Source of the DNA: Thermoguttaceae bacterium
Lineage (GTDB): Bacteria; Planctomycetota; Planctomycetia; Pirellulales; Thermoguttaceae
Direction of reading: 5' to 3'
Length of the DNA: 49,265 nucleotides
Assembly (NCBI GenBank): GCA_029975295.1
Contig: JARKPK010000117.1
Coordinates: forward strand, 1 to 49,265
Shown here: positions 1 through 8,655 of the stretch, piece after piece
How the letters are laid out: every line of letters begins with the position of its first letter
Position numbering within the stretch: the stretch's first letter is position 1
The notes under the pieces: generated by a model
What the model saw: only the letters and a program-made list of their open reading frames with translations
Told to the model about the DNA's origin: nothing
The model's database searches: none
Made by a program: the position numbers and the translations under genes

Positions 1-3000
1 GGGGTTATAGACCAGCGCCGTGGGCGAGATAGCCCCGCCGGGCAACCGCGGATCACTGCCGTCGAGCGTGTAGTAGATCACCCCCGAGCCGGAAAGCGTG
101 AGCGGATAGCCGTACTCCACCTGCCCGCCATGCCGGCTGAAGAGGGCCGGCGAAATACTCGGCGGATAGAGCGGCGCTACCGTGTTGTCGCGCAACTTGG
201 TCACTTTGAGTTGCGCGAGAATTGTGGCCGCCCGGGTTTGAAGATAGTTCTTGTCCTGAGTGGTCGCCGTGATCCAATCATTCTTCGTGTACGGAGTGGC
301 AACCTTCGAATCACCCCAGCGGGCGCTTTCGGCGATGATGGCCAGCGCGATTTCGTCGCAACGTTCTTGGTAGCGGGCCACCGCGGGCCCACCGGTAAGC
401 AGCCCATTGTTGGCGAGCAATGCGTAGGCCCGATCGGCAAAGGCCATGCGGTACTCGGCGTTGTACATCAACTGCTGATGGATCCATTGAGGGTTGCTTT
501 TATTGAATACGTCGCCGGCCGGATAAGGCCCGGTGCGATCTTGCGAAGGACTGACGACCAAGGTGTGTTCGTTGTCGTGCACGAAGAACTTGAATCCGTC
601 GGGATTGACGCGATTGTAGATGCCGTACCAATTGTTGGGCGACTGATTACTGAGAAAGTTCGATATCGGAGCGTCGGCATTGGCCGTGAAGAAAATGATC
701 ATCATGTAGTCGATCAGATTCTTCGCGTCGAGCAGCTTGGGGAAGTACGGGTTGGGCGTGCCGTCGGGGTTCAGTCCTTGAACACGCATGTAGGCGGCGT
801 CGCTGGCCATGGTCGATCGAGCCAGCCCGCCGTTGGCCGAATCGCCCACTAAGCGGAAGACGGAGCTGTTGAAGGCGGAATGCTCTCCTTGCGCGGCGAA
901 CAGTTCGAGTGATGCCCCGCCGGTGTTGTCGAAATAGACCAATCGCAGGTTGTACGAACCGGCCTGGGTGATGTTGAACGTGGCCAGAGTATCTACCGGC
1001 GAGGCGTTCGGCCCGGGATTCGACATCACGAACGTCTGCGAACCGTTGCTCAGTTCCAGGCGGAAGCCGTCGTCGGCATTGACGCCGAAGGTCCACGGAC
1101 CGACTGCGGGAATCTCGATCGTGCCGGTGACGCAGATGACGAAGTTGTCGACGTTGGCGCCGGTGGTTGTGTTCGGGAAAGCGGCGTTGCCGCTGGTGAA
1201 TCGCCCATCGCTGCCTGTATTGAGGTAGTTGATCACGTCGGCCGAGCCAGCCACCGCCGAAAGCTGCTTGGAGGTGTCGGCAATGACGCTGTCGGCCGCG
1301 GCCAGCGAAGTGACCGGCACGTTGGCCATGTAGGTGTAAACAGTGAACTTGCCGCCGGCCTGGTTCCAAAAATCTTGCCAGGCGTTCATGTTGCCGTCGG
1401 TGGCGAAGATCGTGTAGCCGGGATACGGCGGCTGATCGGCCACCTTGATCACGTCGTAGTCGCTGTCGTCGCCGCCTAGGTACGACTCGGCGAAGTTGGA
1501 GTCGGCCCGCTCTTGCGTTTCGTAAAGCCCCCAGTATTGGCCGTTGATATAGAGGTGATAGGCCCGACTGCGGGTGTAGGGATCGCCCATGTCGCCCTGG
1601 GTGTCGCGGGCGAAGACATCGCGGACTACAGCATTGCGCGAATCGCCGCCAAAGCTCCAGGAATAGTTCTGACTGCAACGCAGGTCGATCTTGTCGAAGG
1701 TGTCGACGCCCTCATCGCCGAAAAGGGCGTACACCAGTTTCGAATCGCCGTATTCGTCGCGGAAGAACAGCCGGAAGGCATGCTTGGGGTTGGTGCCCGA
1801 GGTGCTGAAGCCGCCGCGGATGCGAATGCCGGCTTCGACCTGAAAGCCCTGGGCTCCATCGGGATTGATCAACTCAACCGAGGTGACGCGTTCCCAGTTG
1901 GCGCCGGCTTGCTCGGCGTTGCTGTAGATTCCGGTAGCCGGGTCGAACAGATTGCCCAGCGGCAACACCAGCGAGATGGTGGGAATGGCGGTCAGCGCGC
2001 TAATTAACTGCGGTCCCCAGGTCGGATTATTGACGATGTCGGGATCCATCCCGTAGTCGATCACTTGGCTGTTGACCGTTGCGGCGGGCCATTGGCTGAA
2101 GATCACCTCGTCGAAGAAGCCGTTGAGCCATTTGCCGCTGCTGGTGTCGGCATCGCTGAAGTACGCGCCCAAACGCAAGGTGTGCGTGCCGACCGAAAGG
2201 TTGACGTTGAACTTGTAGATTTGCCAGCCGCTATCTTGGTTGCTGCCGCCGGGGCCGTCGCCGGTGATGCGAACCAACGACGTGCCCGTCCCGCCGCCGT
2301 AGCGCACGCCGTCAACGGTGCAGATCAGTTCGCCGTATTCGTCAGTGGCGAACTCGGGGCCCATCACGAGTCGGTATCGGAGCCAAACGCCGTACAATCC
2401 CGCCTGCTCGACGGTGATCGTTTTGCTGAACCCACCCGAGGCGGCGACGGTCGGCCCGGGGCCGAGCACCACCTTCAGCCCGCCGCCGCTCTGTCCTTCG
2501 GTGGCCGAGTACATGCCTTGGGCGGCGTTGGGGTTCGAGGTGCCGAACAGATCGTCGACATAGACGAAGCCGTCGAGGCCCGTGTCGAACTTGGCCGCAA
2601 AACTGACTCCGTCGGGCGGCACGGGCGGCTGGCCGTCGCGCGACTGCACAAGCACATCCGAGAGGAAGATGTAAGTATGGGTGTCGATATTCGTCGATTG
2701 CCAACCGGGCCGGTGGGCCAGGGCGCGGACGGTGGTTGTGCCGGAGATTGTGATCGGTCCGGTGTACACGAACCCGCGCGTTTCGCTGGGCGTTGTGCCG
2801 TCAAGTGTGTAGCGAATCTCGGCCCCGGGCGTGTCGGTGGTGATGACCAACTCGAAGGGCTGATCGTAGAAGCCGCGGTTGTGGCTGAATTTGGTGTCGG
2901 CCACAAAATCGGTGTGCGCCGTCAGGTTGGCCGCTCCGGGCGTCGGCTCGGTGAAGAAGCGTGCCTCGGTCGTCGTTTTGATCCCTACCAATTCCGGCAG

Positions 3001-4566
3001 AATTAGGAACATGCCGTCGGAAGCGGCGTTGTTCAGCGCATGAATGGCCAGCACGTTGCCGCCCGCCTGCAGCAAATGGCGAACCGAGGTGAGGTTGAAC
3101 TCGTTGAATGCCATGCCCAGCGTCGGATCGCGCATGGCCAGGGCCGCGGAGTTGTACGCCAAGGTGGTCGGAGCGTTCGCCCGGGCGACCTCGACACCAT
3201 TGAGGTAGGCGACGAAGCCGTCGTTGTACTTCATCCGCAGGGCGAGCGAATCTAAATCGTCGAGCGTGGTGACCGTAAAGGGAATGCGCATCCACAGCGA
3301 TGAGTTGACGCCCTGCATCGACGACGAGACGTTCGTTTGCACCGCCCCGGCAAATCCGGAAACGGAAAGCCCGCCGTTGGCTGTGTCGCCCACCAAATCG
3401 AACGTTGTCGCATTCCACGAGGTGTACGATCCCGGCGAGGCGAACAACTCGACCTCGGCCCCGCCCCCGCGCTCGAAATAGACCAACCGCAACGAGTACA
3501 GACCGGCCTGCGTGAAATTGAAGGTTTGCAGGGTGTCGGCCGGCCCGCGCGGGTTGGGAAACTCCATGCTGAAGGTGTTCGAACTGTTGTTGAGCACCAG
3601 CCGAAACCCGTCGTCGCTATTGACGCCGAATGTCCACGCGCCGGCCGAGGGAATATAAACGGTAGCGAACGCCTCGATGATGAAATCATCGACGGCCTGG
3701 TTGAGCGTTTGAGTGGGAAAGGGCAGATCGCCGGTGTATCGCCCATAATCGCCGCCGGAGCCGAAGTAGTTGATCGTCGGCGCATAAACGGTGACTTTGG
3801 TGGAATACTTGTTCGGATCGGCGATGATCGCCTCGGCCTGGGCGATGTTGTTCACGGTTCCGGCGACGGCCGTATTGACCTTATAGTAGTTGACGGTGAA
3901 CCCGTTGCCCGAGTCAAAACCCAAGCCCGTCGGACCGGATTGCCAGGCCGAATCGTTGAACCCGACCGCCGTCCAATTCAATCCGGCATGGCTGGCGTTG
4001 GGCACCAGATATTTCGCCGTCGCCCCGCTGCCGACGAAAACGGTCGCCTCCTGAACCAAACCGTAAGACACATCAGTCCACTGCGACGGGAACCCAGGCG
4101 AGTATTCATGGGCAATCGCGCCGCCGGGCATCACCAGAGCCAGATATTCGCCATCGCCGCTGAGCTTGAAGTTGGTGTGCAGTTCGCCGGCAGGATCGGT
4201 GAGGTTGCGATCACTGGCGAAAATAACTAGATAGTCGCCGGCCTCGATGGTGACGTTGGGTAAGGCCCACTTCGTGAGATTTGAAGCATTATCCGTAAGA
4301 TACCAACCGGACAAGTTGATGGCGGTGTCTGTCGGATTGTGCAGTTCGATCCAGTCGGAAGCCTCGTTGAACGAATCGCGCAGCCCGTCGCGGTTCAGCG
4401 CCACGAACTCGCTGATGACCGGATAACTGCTCAGAAGCCGCCGGTCTTCGAGTTGCTCGAACGCCATGCGCCGGTTTCGCCCCAGGGACGTCTTGCGGCG
4501 ACCATCACCCTTGCCCGATCGCAGCAGGGGCGATCCGTGTTTCGCTGTCTTCCTGAGATGAACCAC
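1..4566 (-). CDS. CotH-kinase / lamin-tail-domain surface protein with inserted beta-sandwich modules (partial, no C-terminus)
   Basis: The frame is open for 1522 codons and leaves the window at base 1, so the C-terminus is missing. I chose the GTG at 4566 because GGGAG lies 6 bases upstream; an ATG at 4467 is the alternative. Residues 36-45 carry FEQLEDRRLL, the planctomycete LEPR-xLL-type N-terminal motif of surface proteins. Then come a lamin-tail domain (about 50-140), a galactose-binding-like region containing a PA14-like module (223-401), a chitobiase C-terminal-like domain (about 550-633), another beta-sandwich (654-825), the CotH kinase region (from about 839; HLYINGQYWGLYE and RADSNF stretches) with a second PA14-like module inside it (1074-1248), and a further chitobiase-like domain at the edge. 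CotH proteins are secreted or surface protein kinases. The nearby VTC/DUF4956 genes are typical CotH neighbours as I remember them. Substrate unknown. Confidence 0.9.
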   Translation of the reverse strand, partial: MVHLRKTAKHGSPLLRSGKGDGRRKTSLGRNRRMAFEQLEDRRLLSSYPVISEFVALNRDGLRDSFNEASDWIELHNPTDTAINLSGWYLTDNASNLTKWALPNVTIEAGDYLVIFASDRNLTDPAGELHTNFKLSGDGEYLALVMPGGAIAHEYSPGFPSQWTDVSYGLVQEATVFVGSGATAKYLVPNASHAGLNWTAVGFNDSAWQSGPTGLGFDSGNGFTVNYYKVNTAVAGTVNNIAQAEAIIADPNKYSTKVTVYAPTINYFGSGGDYGRYTGDLPFPTQTLNQAVDDFIIEAFATVYIPSAGAWTFGVNSDDGFRLVLNNSSNTFSMEFPNPRGPADTLQTFNFTQAGLYSLRLVYFERGGGAEVELFASPGSYTSWNATTFDLVGDTANGGLSVSGFAGAVQTNVSSSMQGVNSSLWMRIPFTVTTLDDLDSLALRMKYNDGFVAYLNGVEVARANAPTTLAYNSAALAMRDPTLGMAFNEFNLTSVRHLLQAGGNVLAIHALNNAASDGMFLILPELVGIKTTTEARFFTEPTPGAANLTAHTDFVADTKFSHNRGFYDQPFELVITTDTPGAEIRYTLDGTTPSETRGFVYTGPITISGTTTVRALAHRPGWQSTNIDTHTYIFLSDVLVQSRDGQPPVPPDGVSFAAKFDTGLDGFVYVDDLFGTSNPNAAQGMYSATEGQSGGGLKVVLGPGPTVAASGGFSKTITVEQAGLYGVWLRYRLVMGPEFATDEYGELICTVDGVRYGGGTGTSLVRITGDGPGGSNQDSGWQIYKFNVNLSVGTHTLRLGAYFSDADTSSGKWLNGFFDEVIFSQWPAATVNSQVIDYGMDPDIVNNPTWGPQLISALTAIPTISLVLPLGNLFDPATGIYSNAEQAGANWERVTSVELINPDGAQGFQVEAGIRIRGGFSTSGTNPKHAFRLFFRDEYGDSKLVYALFGDEGVDTFDKIDLRCSQNYSWSFGGDSRNAVVRDVFARDTQGDMGDPYTRSRAYHLYINGQYWGLYETQERADSNFAESYLGGDDSDYDVIKVADQPPYPGYTIFATDGNMNAWQDFWNQAGGKFTVYTYMANVPVTSLAAADSVIADTSKQLSAVAGSADVINYLNTGSDGRFTSGNAAFPNTTTGANVDNFVICVTGTIEIPAVGPWTFGVNADDGFRLELSNGSQTFVMSNPGPNASPVDTLATFNITQAGSYNLRLVYFDNTGGASLELFAAQGEHSAFNSSVFRLVGDSANGGLARSTMASDAAYMRVQGLNPDGTPNPYFPKLLDAKNLIDYMMIIFFTANADAPISNFLSNQSPNNWYGIYNRVNPDGFKFFVHDNEHTLVVSPSQDRTGPYPAGDVFNKSNPQWIHQQLMYNAEYRMAFADRAYALLANNGLLTGGPAVARYQERCDEIALAIIAESARWGDSKVATPYTKNDWITATTQDKNYLQTRAATILAQLKVTKLRDNTVAPLYPPSISPALFSRHGGQVEYGYPLTLSGSGVIYYTLDGSDPRLPGGAISPTALVYNP
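823..1347 (-). repeat. PA14-like module, copy 2, inside the CotH kinase domain
   Basis: About 175 residues, beginning FTVYTY and ending ANGGL, homologous to copy 1 over its full length. It separates MNAWQDFWNQAGGK from RSTMASDAAYMRVQG, two segments that are adjacent in ordinary CotH kinase domains from memory. Confidence 0.75.
2092..2607 (-). other. Inserted beta-sandwich (carbohydrate-binding-like) module in the CotH protein
   Basis: About 172 residues, from VSFAAKFDTG to VIFSQ. It contains an adhesive jelly-roll style sequence (LDGFVYVDD, GLYGVWLRYR, SVGTHTLRLGAYFSD). Removing it joins PPVPPDG to WPAATVNSQV, which resembles the unbroken linker before the DYGMDPDIV segment in other CotH proteins as I recall them. 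Not clearly homologous to the PA14-like pair. Confidence 0.55.
3364..3900 (-). repeat. PA14-like module, copy 1, inside the CotH protein
   Basis: About 179 residues, beginning FTVNYY and ending ANGGLS. It shares with copy 2 (823-1347) the anchors FTV, IIAD, WTFGVN.DDGFRL, DTL.TFN.TQAG and LVGD.ANGGL. The flanking sequence (GLGFDSGNG before, SGFAGAVQTNV after) reads as one continuous host domain once the module is removed. Confidence 0.75.
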
Positions 4567-5133
4567 GATCTGCTCCCGGGGCACTCGAATATCCGGCTTC
4601 ACCTTGAAACGGCAACCGCCCCCGTCTTTGCCCGAAGGGCGCACACATCGGGGACTTGGCAAGCGGACTTGCCCTTTGCGAAGTCGATTCGTTCTGGGGG
4701 TTGAAAACTCACAGCGCACAGCGGACGGCCCATCGGCGACTCGCCGACTCGATCCGTTCGCCTATCGAAGAACTCTCGCCCAACTGCCGACGAAATCGTC
4801 GGTCTGGCCGACAACCAAGCCGTCGAACTTGCCGCTTATTCGCAACGGCGGGACTCGACTTGTCCGTTCACAACACTCCGCCGGGCGAGTCACTTTGCGC
4901 ACCCCCGCGCCTGCGCTGCTGCCGGGCACAAACCAGCAGCGGCCGCCCAACCCGTCAATACTACTAATGCACGAAACGAGCCCTTCCAGCCGCGCTCGAC
5001 GGGCCCTTGCCGATGAACGAAGAGCCGCAATAGACCGACCGACGACCGGCACGGGCTATAGCGCCTCTGCTCCACGCAATTGATTGCGAGCGGTTCCGAA
5101 AAGACTGCGTCCGGTTGGGCCGAGCGATCACCG

Positions 5134-5843: not shown

Positions 5844-7340
5844 ATGGCCGACTCGCCCTTCGTCGCGCGATGTGTGTCTGCTTTGGCGTTAGCGGGCTGG
5901 GTCGGGCTTTGCGGCTGCCAAGCAGTCGGGCCGATCGAAAGCGATTGGAGCAGCCCGAACTCCCGCCTTCCCGAAGCGCAGCAAGGGGTGCTCGATCGGC
6001 GGCAAACCGACGGCTCAAACGCGGCAACGCCCGTCGCCCACACCGAAGCCGAATCACCGCCGGGCGCGGCAAGGCCGCCGACGGCCGCAACGGTTGCCGA
6101 ACCGCCCGAGGTGATCGCACTGCCCGATTCTCCGGCCGAACTCGCCGGCCCAAGGCCCGAAGTCGCGGGCCAGTCGCTCACGATCGACCAGCTTTTCGAG
6201 CATGCCATTCGCTATCACCCGCGGCTGTGCGCTTGCAAACACGAGATCGCGGCGGCGGCCGGGCGATTGACCCAGGCGGGCCTGTTGCCGAACCCGAACC
6301 TGGTGATCGATGTCGAGAGCCCGCTGACCGAGAACGATCCGACCACGGTTTCCAGCCGATTGATGTTCAGCTTCCCGCTAACGCGAAAACGGCACTGGCG
6401 TCGGCAGTTGGAGTGCTCGGGTCTGGAGGAGGCTCGGGCGAAACTGAGCGAGGAAACGGAGATCGTCTTCGCCGAGATCGCCGACGCTTCGATCGAGCTT
6501 CTTTTCTATCAGGAACTGGCCCGAAAACAGGCCGAAGCCGCCCAATTGGCCAAACAAGCGGCCGAGGCGCGCCGCCAGCGGGCGGGAGCGTCGTTCGTCG
6601 ACGCCGCCGCGGCCGAAACGGCGGCGATCTCGGCGCAATGGGGCAGCCACGACACCGCCGAGCGTTTGCAGGCGGCGCGCGACCGACTGGCCCGAGCCGC
6701 GGCCTGGCCCGCCGATCAGCCATTGCAGTTGGGCGGCACGTTGTGTTTCGCGCGGACGGAACCGTTAGACCTGTCCGGCGTGTTGGCGGCCGTGCAGTCG
6801 CGACGGCCGCGCCTGGCAGCGGCACAAGCCAATGTTGCCCGCAGCGGACACGCCTACCAGCTTGCCCGAGCCGAGGCCTGGCCCGACCTGGAAATCGGGC
6901 CGCGATTCCAGGGCGACACGGACGGCCCGGAAGACCGATTGGGCGGCCGCTTCGCCATGGACGTTCCGATCTTCGATCGCAACCAGGGGCGGATTGCCGA
7001 AGCCGAGGCGGCTTGGCGGGCCAGTCGCGACCTGCTGGCCGACGCGCGGCGGAACTCGGCGGCCGATGTGGCGGCCGCCTTCCACGCAATCGCGGCGTTG
7101 CAGCAATCACTCGACTATTTCTCGGAGACCGTCGCGCCGACGATGGAAAAACTCCGCTCGCAACTGGCCGATCTCGAAGCGAAAAAGGCGATCGAGGGCT
7201 ATCAGGCGCTCGATCTGCGGCAGCGGTTGCTGCGGATGGAGATGGAGCACTTGGAACGTCTGGCCCGCTACAGCCGGCTTCTGGTGCGGTTGGAGCTTTG
7301 GGTCGGTCGGCCGCTGACCGACGGACCGCTCGTCCTCTAG
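5844..7340 (+). CDS. TolC/CusC-type outer membrane efflux lipoprotein (OEP family)
   Basis: 498 residues. The N-terminus is a lipoprotein signal: a hydrophobic stretch followed by GLCGCQ, so the lipidated Cys would be about residue 27. After a Pro/Ala-rich linker (30-105), the sequence LTIDQLFEHAIRYHPRL begins the first of two OEP repeats; the long Ala/Glu/Gln-rich helices (about 155-275 and 300-470) are the periplasmic barrel helices, and LMFSFPLTRKR and FAMDVPIFDRNQGR are the usual membrane beta-hairpin segments. OEP proteins form trimeric outer-membrane ducts for tripartite pumps. The HlyD-like adaptor lies convergently downstream (7486-8655), but no RND or ABC pump gene is nearby, so the exported substrate is unknown. 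It ends in TAG. Confidence 0.88.
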   Translation: MADSPFVARCVSALALAGWVGLCGCQAVGPIESDWSSPNSRLPEAQQGVLDRRQTDGSNAATPVAHTEAESPPGAARPPTAATVAEPPEVIALPDSPAELAGPRPEVAGQSLTIDQLFEHAIRYHPRLCACKHEIAAAAGRLTQAGLLPNPNLVIDVESPLTENDPTTVSSRLMFSFPLTRKRHWRRQLECSGLEEARAKLSEETEIVFAEIADASIELLFYQELARKQAEAAQLAKQAAEARRQRAGASFVDAAAAETAAISAQWGSHDTAERLQAARDRLARAAAWPADQPLQLGGTLCFARTEPLDLSGVLAAVQSRRPRLAAAQANVARSGHAYQLARAEAWPDLEIGPRFQGDTDGPEDRLGGRFAMDVPIFDRNQGRIAEAEAAWRASRDLLADARRNSAADVAAAFHAIAALQQSLDYFSETVAPTMEKLRSQLADLEAKKAIEGYQALDLRQRLLRMEMEHLERLARYSRLLVRLELWVGRPLTDGPLVL

Positions 7341-7485
7341 GCAGGGCTTCATCGAAACGACTGCCGACGCAGCGAAGCGGCCGATCACCTATTCTGCTTC
7401 TGCCCGCGCGGGCCGACACTGGTTCCGCGGTTCCATTTCGGAAACCGTTTCGCTTGATGCCCGACTACTGCCATTGGGCAGACAC

Positions 7486-8655
7486 TCAGCCGGCCCGATC
7501 GCGCCGCTCGGCGGGCTGGAACCGAACATCGAACAGTTCGCCGGGCACGGCGGGCAGTTCTCGCGGCACCAAAATGCGGATCGGACGCCCCCATTCGAGC
7601 AGTTTCGGATCGCGGCGCTGGTGCTCGGGAATCAACTCGACTTGCGGCCCCACCTTTTCGATCACCGAACGCCAGGCAGAGCTGCCCAGCCGCCGCGGAC
7701 GGATCTCTACGGCCGCGCCAACCTCCGGGTGCAACTGCTGCTCCTGCCGAATGTAGCTGACGATGTAGCGGCTTTCGCCGGCGGCGATCGTTAAGATCGG
7801 CTCCCCCTGCCGCACTGTTTGCCCCGGCCAGCGATGAATCGCGGCAATCACCCCCGCCATCGGCGCGCGAATCTCGAGCCCGGCAATCTGATACTCGATC
7901 TGCTTCACTCGAGCCTCTTGGGCGGCCACAGCCGCTTGCAGCGGGGCCAAGATGGTTTGAATTGGGGCCTCTTCGAGCGGCGGGAATTCGGCCAGTTGTT
8001 CGCGGGCGGCCTCGCGCTGCGACTGGGCCTCGGCCAGCGCCGTGGCGGCGTCGGCCACTTGCTGCTGCAATTTGTCGTGCAGCAGCAACTCGTCGGTGTA
8101 CTGCAATTGGTTCGCCGCGCCCGAGTCGAGCAACGACCGCAGGTATTCCACGCGGGCTTCGCGGCGTTGCAGTTCCACCTTGGCGGTTTCCAGGGCCACC
8201 GCCCGATCAAGCACGTCGAGCCGCCGCGATTCGCTCTCCCAAATGGCGCGCAACAGATCGCCCAGTCGATTGATGCGGCGGTCGTTTTCGGCCAGCAGCG
8301 TTTGAGCGCGCGCCGCTTCGAGCTCTTTGTGCAATCGCTCTACTTCGAGCTTGGCTGCCTCCAGCTCGAATCGCGCCGCCGTGTCGTCGAAGCGGGCGAC
8401 CACCTGCTGCGATTGAACCGCGTCGAAAAGCGTCCACGGCGAGCGAAACGCGATCAGCCGCCCGTCCACCGGCGAGCCGACGTCAACCCGCACCACATCC
8501 GCTTCGCCCACCAAAACCGCCTGCGGCATCTGCCGCTGCCACAGCCAAATCGCGGCCGACAGGCAGACCCCAAAACAGACCATCGGCATCACGCTCTGCC
8601 GCAAGCGTTGCAGTCTCAGTTTCCATGGCGTGGGAATCCGATGATACGGCGTCAT
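7486..8655 (-). CDS. HlyD-family periplasmic adaptor (membrane fusion protein)
   Basis: 389 residues. One transmembrane helix near the N-terminus (about 20-39), then a lipoyl-like half (VRVDVGSPVDGRL), a long alpha-helical coiled-coil hairpin (about 85-240, rich in Glu, Ala, Leu and Arg), the returning lipoyl half (GLEIRAPMAGVIAAIHRWPGQTVRQGEPIL) and a C-terminal beta-barrel region. Such proteins bridge an inner-membrane transporter and an outer-membrane duct. It is the last gene of the operon VTC > DUF4956 > HlyD, three bases after the DUF4956 stop, and faces the OEP gene, its likely partner. No ABC or RND gene is present, so the inner-membrane partner may be the DUF4956 protein or encoded elsewhere. 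Confidence 0.87.
   Translation of the reverse strand: MTPYHRIPTPWKLRLQRLRQSVMPMVCFGVCLSAAIWLWQRQMPQAVLVGEADVVRVDVGSPVDGRLIAFRSPWTLFDAVQSQQVVARFDDTAARFELEAAKLEVERLHKELEAARAQTLLAENDRRINRLGDLLRAIWESESRRLDVLDRAVALETAKVELQRREARVEYLRSLLDSGAANQLQYTDELLLHDKLQQQVADAATALAEAQSQREAAREQLAEFPPLEEAPIQTILAPLQAAVAAQEARVKQIEYQIAGLEIRAPMAGVIAAIHRWPGQTVRQGEPILTIAAGESRYIVSYIRQEQQLHPEVGAAVEIRPRRLGSSAWRSVIEKVGPQVELIPEHQRRDPKLLEWGRPIRILVPRELPAVPGELFDVRFQPAERRDRAG

Follow-up and report, generated by a model that had tools for sequence, protein, structure and literature searches.

The question raised by this locus is whether whole beta-sandwich modules have been inserted, precisely and in frame, into other folded domains of a single CotH protein, and by what route they arrived. 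The window, a 49,265-nucleotide stretch of DNA from a Thermoguttaceae bacterium, is contig 164 (C164) of a 190-contig, 5.0 Mb assembly. Positions 1–4719 of its minus strand form a single open frame that extends off the contig end and whose start codon is unsettled. Pfam and our own profiles give the following order of domains, all on the minus strand: a lamin tail domain (LTD; PF00932, profile residues 12–122) at 4090–4422; the first part of a host jelly-roll domain (G1, from a profile) at 3913–4083; PA14 module A at 3367–3900; the second part of the jelly roll (G2, from a profile and a structural match) at 2986–3345; an Fn3_assoc/CHB_HEX_C_1 domain (Pfam and profile) at 2641–2943; a third module at 2092–2607; the first part of the CotH kinase domain (K1; Pfam CotH, profile and structural match) at 1366–2076; PA14 module C at 823–1347; the second part of the kinase (K2; profile, structural and sequence alignment) at 166–798; and a second Fn3_assoc domain. 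Positions 1–141 (minus strand) overlap exactly with contigs C44 and C131 and lead into a 3459-base repeat, which is joined by two contigs at either end. Secretion is suggested by a Planc_extracel match near the N-terminus of the frame, weak and below cut-off (19.3 bits vs 25.5), together with a dockerin encoded on C131, the adjoining contig (37.1 bits, cut-off 22.9); the LTD/jelly-roll/CotH protein is probably extracellular and may be located at the surface. NCBIfam searches returned two matches in the window frame, both far below cut-off, and none on C131. Beside the CotH gene, positions 5844–8655 contain frames that by eye resemble an outer-membrane efflux protein and a membrane-fusion protein.

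The initial annotation described two homologous modules with shared borders. Modules A (178 aa) and C (175 aa) are 50.6% identical (E 2e-49), and both begin with FTV and finish with ANGGL, exactly as had been proposed. The limits given for module C (823–1347, 175 aa) were right, and the limit of 3364 given for module A was off by 3 bases. The two modules score 36.6 and 42.7 bits with Pfam PA14 (PF07691, curated cut-off 24), and predicted models of both adopt the PA14 beta-sandwich fold, matching crystal structures with Z scores of 16.8 (A) and 14.2 (C). Rigden and colleagues are reported to have been the first to describe the PA14 family.

Predicted structures were used to place the modules relative to their hosts. 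In the model of residues 118–500 (59 sequences, pLDDT 93.1), PA14 crystal structures align to model residues 65–253, and the jelly roll of a GH2 beta-glucuronidase (5uj6_B, chain residues 32–184) aligns over 134 residues distributed between model residues 18 and 377 (Z 12.8), a match that spans module A. In the model of residues 600–1440 (44 sequences, pLDDT 76.3), the Bacillus cereus CotH kinase 5jd9 aligns over 329/358 residues to model residues 224–823 (Z 31.9, rmsd 2.4), which gives the segment a predicted CotH kinase fold, and PA14 structures align inside this range, to model residues 427–615. The kinase model is only moderately sure within module C (block pLDDT 37–85, with residues 478–502 and 598–613 below 50) and is also less sure in its residues 1–74. 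According to an ordinary modular architecture, the modules would be consecutive domains and their hosts separate small domains. That description holds for the third module (see below); for modules A and C it is contradicted by flanks that, in the predicted models, align jointly to single solved domains and by relatives in which both flanks are joined, and we regard it as highly improbable as an account of the locus. Consecutive placement of A and C was rejected on these predicted alignments. The models thus support jelly-roll and kinase hosts that are each one predicted fold interrupted by a PA14 module. The jelly-roll host had been annotated as a galactose-binding-like domain, and the proposal that one module sits within it and the other within the CotH kinase is supported by the predicted structures.

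The third module had been grouped with A and C as a nested insertion. It is real and lies in the linker, but structure prediction recovers nesting in only two of the three modules, A and C. Residues 57–189 of the model, a part of low confidence (block pLDDT about 40–80), match the C-terminal sugar-binding domain of EclA (6yf6) over 109 residues with Z 10.1. The third module ends before the kinase fold starts, the kinase aligning from about residue 823, and because it lies upstream of that fold it is a consecutive linker domain; nesting was rejected for it on the strength of the model. A Pfam search returned no match for the third module or for the linker insert of relative L131. The linker site, at the Fn3–kinase junction, is empty in 105 of 123 cases. 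The other 18 junctions comprise 13 from a divergent CotH subfamily and five rows with an insert of ~190 residues, of which one is a duplicate and one holds a different domain. The third module is thus a putative sugar-binding-like beta-sandwich between domains, unrelated to A and C.

Empty sites in relatives provide evidence for insertion that complements the models. A CotH paralogue on contig C44 of the same genome is without all three modules. Loci were fetched for similarity to the module or to the window protein and still include near relatives, so that their occupancy shows variety rather than frequency; of 185 such rows, duplicates included, 78 had an empty jelly-roll site (gap below 60 residues), 83 had PA14 there and 24 some other insert. 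Of 122 rows for the kinase site, again with duplicates, 104 were empty and five (four distinct) held PA14; the remaining 13 proteins (12 loci) belong to a CotH subfamily with a gap of 83–108 residues, partly covered by the first kinase profile, and were dropped. With duplicates and partial rows removed and the genome G269 added, 98 of 103 kinase hosts are empty and five are filled. At the kinase loop, the empty relative L123 reads WNQASAGFATDGAY, and the window protein reads WNQAGGK-module-ARSTMASDAAY. The frame is single and empty-site relatives exist, in agreement with the annotated claim that the host reads through when the module is cut out, and homologues do not all carry modules A and C at the same places. 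Empty sites, predicted structures and the trees described below all support precise, repeated insertion in frame, as had been suggested.

Filled kinase sites were found in few genomes. A query containing both kinase junctions matched over its whole length in G000 and G007 alone among 119 genomes of the family and added G269 among 396 genomes of the order; no further genome was found among 392 of the phylum at the strict cut-off of E 1e-25. The order and phylum searches were samples in which no more than six candidates were scored per genome, and divergent filled sites could be missed. The kinase site holds one module in the window protein, on contig C18 of G007 and in G269, two on contig C26 of G007, and four on contig C180 of the same genome as the window. 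Duplication of host flanks was looked for around the C180 kinase insert, and no clear DNA similarity was found. In this second giant CotH protein (L009), repeats of ~65 residues interrupt PA14 modules and Fn3_assoc at protein residues of about 415–495, 755–930 and 1580–1790; one stretch has a weak E1_FCCH match below cut-off and another has none. In another family of the same order, the PA14 part of the query matches inside frames of ~10,000–12,500 residues (G235, G252, G279, G294, G345, G384 and others).

The main jelly-roll loop also accepts domains other than PA14. Eight jelly-roll inserts were submitted to Pfam, seven from the 24 rows without PA14 and one from a row with it. In these proteins, Lectin_C (beside a PA14 module), Laminin_G_3, F5/8 type C and DUF1349 scored above the Pfam cut-off, and an LTD and an agarase-type domain matched below it. 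LTD-like inserts enter a few residues earlier than the others, the part-1 profile ending at position 47–51 of 57. A second insertion point lies inside jelly-roll part 1 and holds ten modules, including one on contig C76 of the same genome. After the module the part-1 profile resumes at position 30–35 in six of seven recognised cases and at position 16 in L051; three further modules have no part-1 hit after them, two of these at a contig end. A segment resembling KRVLVPS (AKYLVPN in the window) precedes the module in nine of the ten. On C76 (L011) a CBM96 domain (31.3 bits, cut-off 26) in turn splits the PA14 module, giving a three-level nest, CBM96 in PA14 in jelly roll, at protein residues 1256–1628. 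Counting loops 1 and 2 of the jelly roll and the kinase loop, one PA14 module family fills three or more host loops. Judged from profile matches, the main jelly-roll loop is a hot spot for domain insertion.

The relationships among modules and among hosts were then compared. In a 105-module tree, prepared after six duplicate loci had been dropped, the kinase-site modules and the C76 module group amid jelly-roll-site modules (midpoint root, bootstrap not settled), and in a free search on 90 module rows the kinase label needs three changes. For module-clade tests 17 modules were left out, eight at other sites and nine chosen as long-branched. When the nine kinase-site modules were held as one clade the likelihood was better (p 0.795, not rejected). 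A single clade of the five filled kinase hosts was rejected in the 103-host tree (p 6e-5), and a clade of the four filled hosts without C180 was not (p 0.736). The kinase-site modules are possibly one clade but their hosts are not, and the module has therefore probably moved between CotH paralogues. Most simply read, these results would mean that the kinase-site module originated once and was transferred once from one CotH lineage to another. The same pair of results, modules that may form one clade in hosts that do not, would also be expected had the module entered the kinase once in a deep CotH ancestor and been lost from nearly all lineages. We consider such a history unlikely: 98 of the 103 sampled hosts are empty, the Bacillus CotH 5jd9 aligns without a module, the filled genes come from three genomes, and the kinase modules branch among jelly-roll-site modules in the midpoint-rooted tree. 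At the jelly roll, a single clade of loop-1 modules was not rejected (p 0.169), which leaves the number of separate loop-1 events unsure. The jelly-roll host tree, counted after removal of eight duplicate loci (the six above included), each a contig entered twice as judged by its length, contains 104 rows (PA14 70, other 22, empty 12) and needs 12 content changes; its well-supported branches alone force two or three changes per class. The host trees are quick searches.

Two routes by which the modules could have arrived were weighed. A dedicated mobile element that inserts in frame into genes and so spreads the PA14 module would account for the same module borders at three host loops, and a 14-base word present at both module 3' ends occurs just once more in the genome, for a total of three copies; the same word read backward as a control is equally common (3 hits). 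Target-site duplications and terminal repeats were sought at the junctions of the window protein. The repeats there, of 6, 6 and 5 bases, do not exceed chance: 707, 707 and 1534 of 1902 randomly drawn pairs, respectively, do as well or better. The modules also resemble the host in base composition, with GC and GC3 both inside its range. No near-identical recent copies at different sites occur among 107 modules, where the best cross-site identity is 67% (56% for the best pair within this genome), so that no recent jump is seen. An autonomous mobile element was accordingly rejected, and we think its involvement very improbable. The initial annotation had suggested a possibly mobile protein module. 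Only a weak form of this holds: one module family fills three or more host loops, and for kinase-site modules a move between paralogous hosts is probable.

Evidence for ordinary recombination comes from C131 (L012, 3459 bases). At one end this contig overlaps both C44 and C164, and at the other both C160 and C161, in each case by 141 exactly matching bases. Beyond the repeat, identity falls at once, to 0.20–0.68 upstream and 0.15–0.38 downstream (60-base blocks, ungapped). Two CotH paralogues, one with modules and one without, thus appear to be identical over ~3.4 kb of DNA, although a strain mixture could also produce this contig graph. Such identity points to recent recombination or conversion between the paralogues, and we infer that ordinary recombination is the best-supported route.

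The kinase host retains sequence features expected of a CotH kinase. The CotH profile (PF08757) scores 61.6 and 65.2 bits (curated cut-off 23.8), and residues 1261 and 1294 in K2, placed by a weak alignment to 5jd9 (E 0.44), are the equivalents of the catalytic aspartates; the aspartate motifs are identical in all five filled kinases. These residues probably correspond to D228 and D251 in B. subtilis numbering, and PMC7821199 reports that changes at D228 and D251 inactivate the CotH kinase. The modules may display a lectin on an active kinase scaffold.

Modules A and C both contain DD, the two consecutive aspartates of the DcisD Ca2+/sugar motif. In PA14 lectins DcisD acts as a Ca2+ ligand and contributes to sugar binding (PMC8092209). 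Modules A and C may bind carbohydrate. From alignment-based counts, DD is present in 78/80 modules in the jelly-roll loop, 10/10 at the other jelly-roll site and 8/8 elsewhere, or 96/98 outside the kinase, as against 4/9 at the kinase site. The loss at the kinase site (5/9 vs 2/98 elsewhere; Fisher p 2e-5, with rows that are not independent) falls in modules of L059, L114, L181 and L009. The presence of DD in only 4/9 modules speaks against a uniform glycan-binding role at the kinase site, and some kinase-site modules may be under relaxed or changed selection.

PA14 nested in GH3 glycosidases is already known, as is domain insertion generally. Receptor kinases carry kinase-insert domains. In GH3 beta-glucosidases of Kluyveromyces marxianus (PDB 3abz/3ac0) and Streptomyces venezuelae, as described in PMC5104943, PA14 likewise lies within a loop of another domain, and module C aligns to 3abz residues 410–557 (Z 10.2). 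The GH3 host is a glycosidase alpha/beta sandwich, whereas here the hosts are a CotH kinase and a jelly roll, and the modules occupy more than one site and can stand in tandem. GH31 alpha-xylosidases (5jov, 2xvg, 7knc) also show a PA14-fold match inside a larger enzyme chain, in a different host. The Marinomonas primoryensis PA14 lectin (MpPA14) shares the fold (Z 16.8) and the DD Ca2+/sugar motif but is a domain of a 1.5-MDa adhesin. The Bacillus CotH kinase (5jd9/5jda) shares the kinase fold and both catalytic aspartate equivalents but is without the insert; it belongs to the spore coat and is not known to carry LTD or dockerin domains. A survey of domain insertion (PMC13114784) reports that 20% of multidomain proteins contain insertions, in some cases at several levels of nesting, and neither PA14 nor CotH occurs as a word in its main text. 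PMC12484212 names both and treats them apart. A literature search of open-access papers found no paper on PA14 nested in CotH.

Taken together, we consider the following account probable. PA14 lectin-type modules would have entered, whole and without a break in the frame, loops at the surface of other folded domains. Insertion into the jelly-roll loop would be old, and found mostly in Planctomycetota and Verrucomicrobiota; insertion into the kinase loop, by the same module family, would be younger and found in three genomes of one order. The kinase-loop module would then have been multiplied in tandem and probably passed between paralogous CotH genes, the modules' arrival being most likely through ordinary recombination among such genes. 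On their hosts the modules would most likely display a Ca2+-dependent glycan-binding surface, and a still-folded kinase with both catalytic aspartates kept, and perhaps active, may thereby be tethered to glycan-bearing partners.

A wider interpretation can be offered as a speculation, with the odds against it. CotH surface proteins of Planctomycetota and Verrucomicrobiota might be socketed scaffolds in which a few fixed loops in the jelly roll and the kinase take unrelated lectin-type domains, swapped and stacked through recombination between paralogues; this would amount to a slowly working cassette system, diversifying the glycans recognised while the kinase is kept folded, with the lectin possibly gating the kinase. 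One jelly-roll loop region takes five or more Pfam families (PA14, Lectin_C, Laminin_G_3, F5/8 type C and DUF1349), a tolerance that could help engineers to decide where a protein will accept an inserted domain. One kinase site occurs with a single module, with several or with none, in paralogues of a single genome and in related genomes. These forms make the survival of a folded enzyme that carries a whole-domain insert, and the movement of a module between genes, directly testable.
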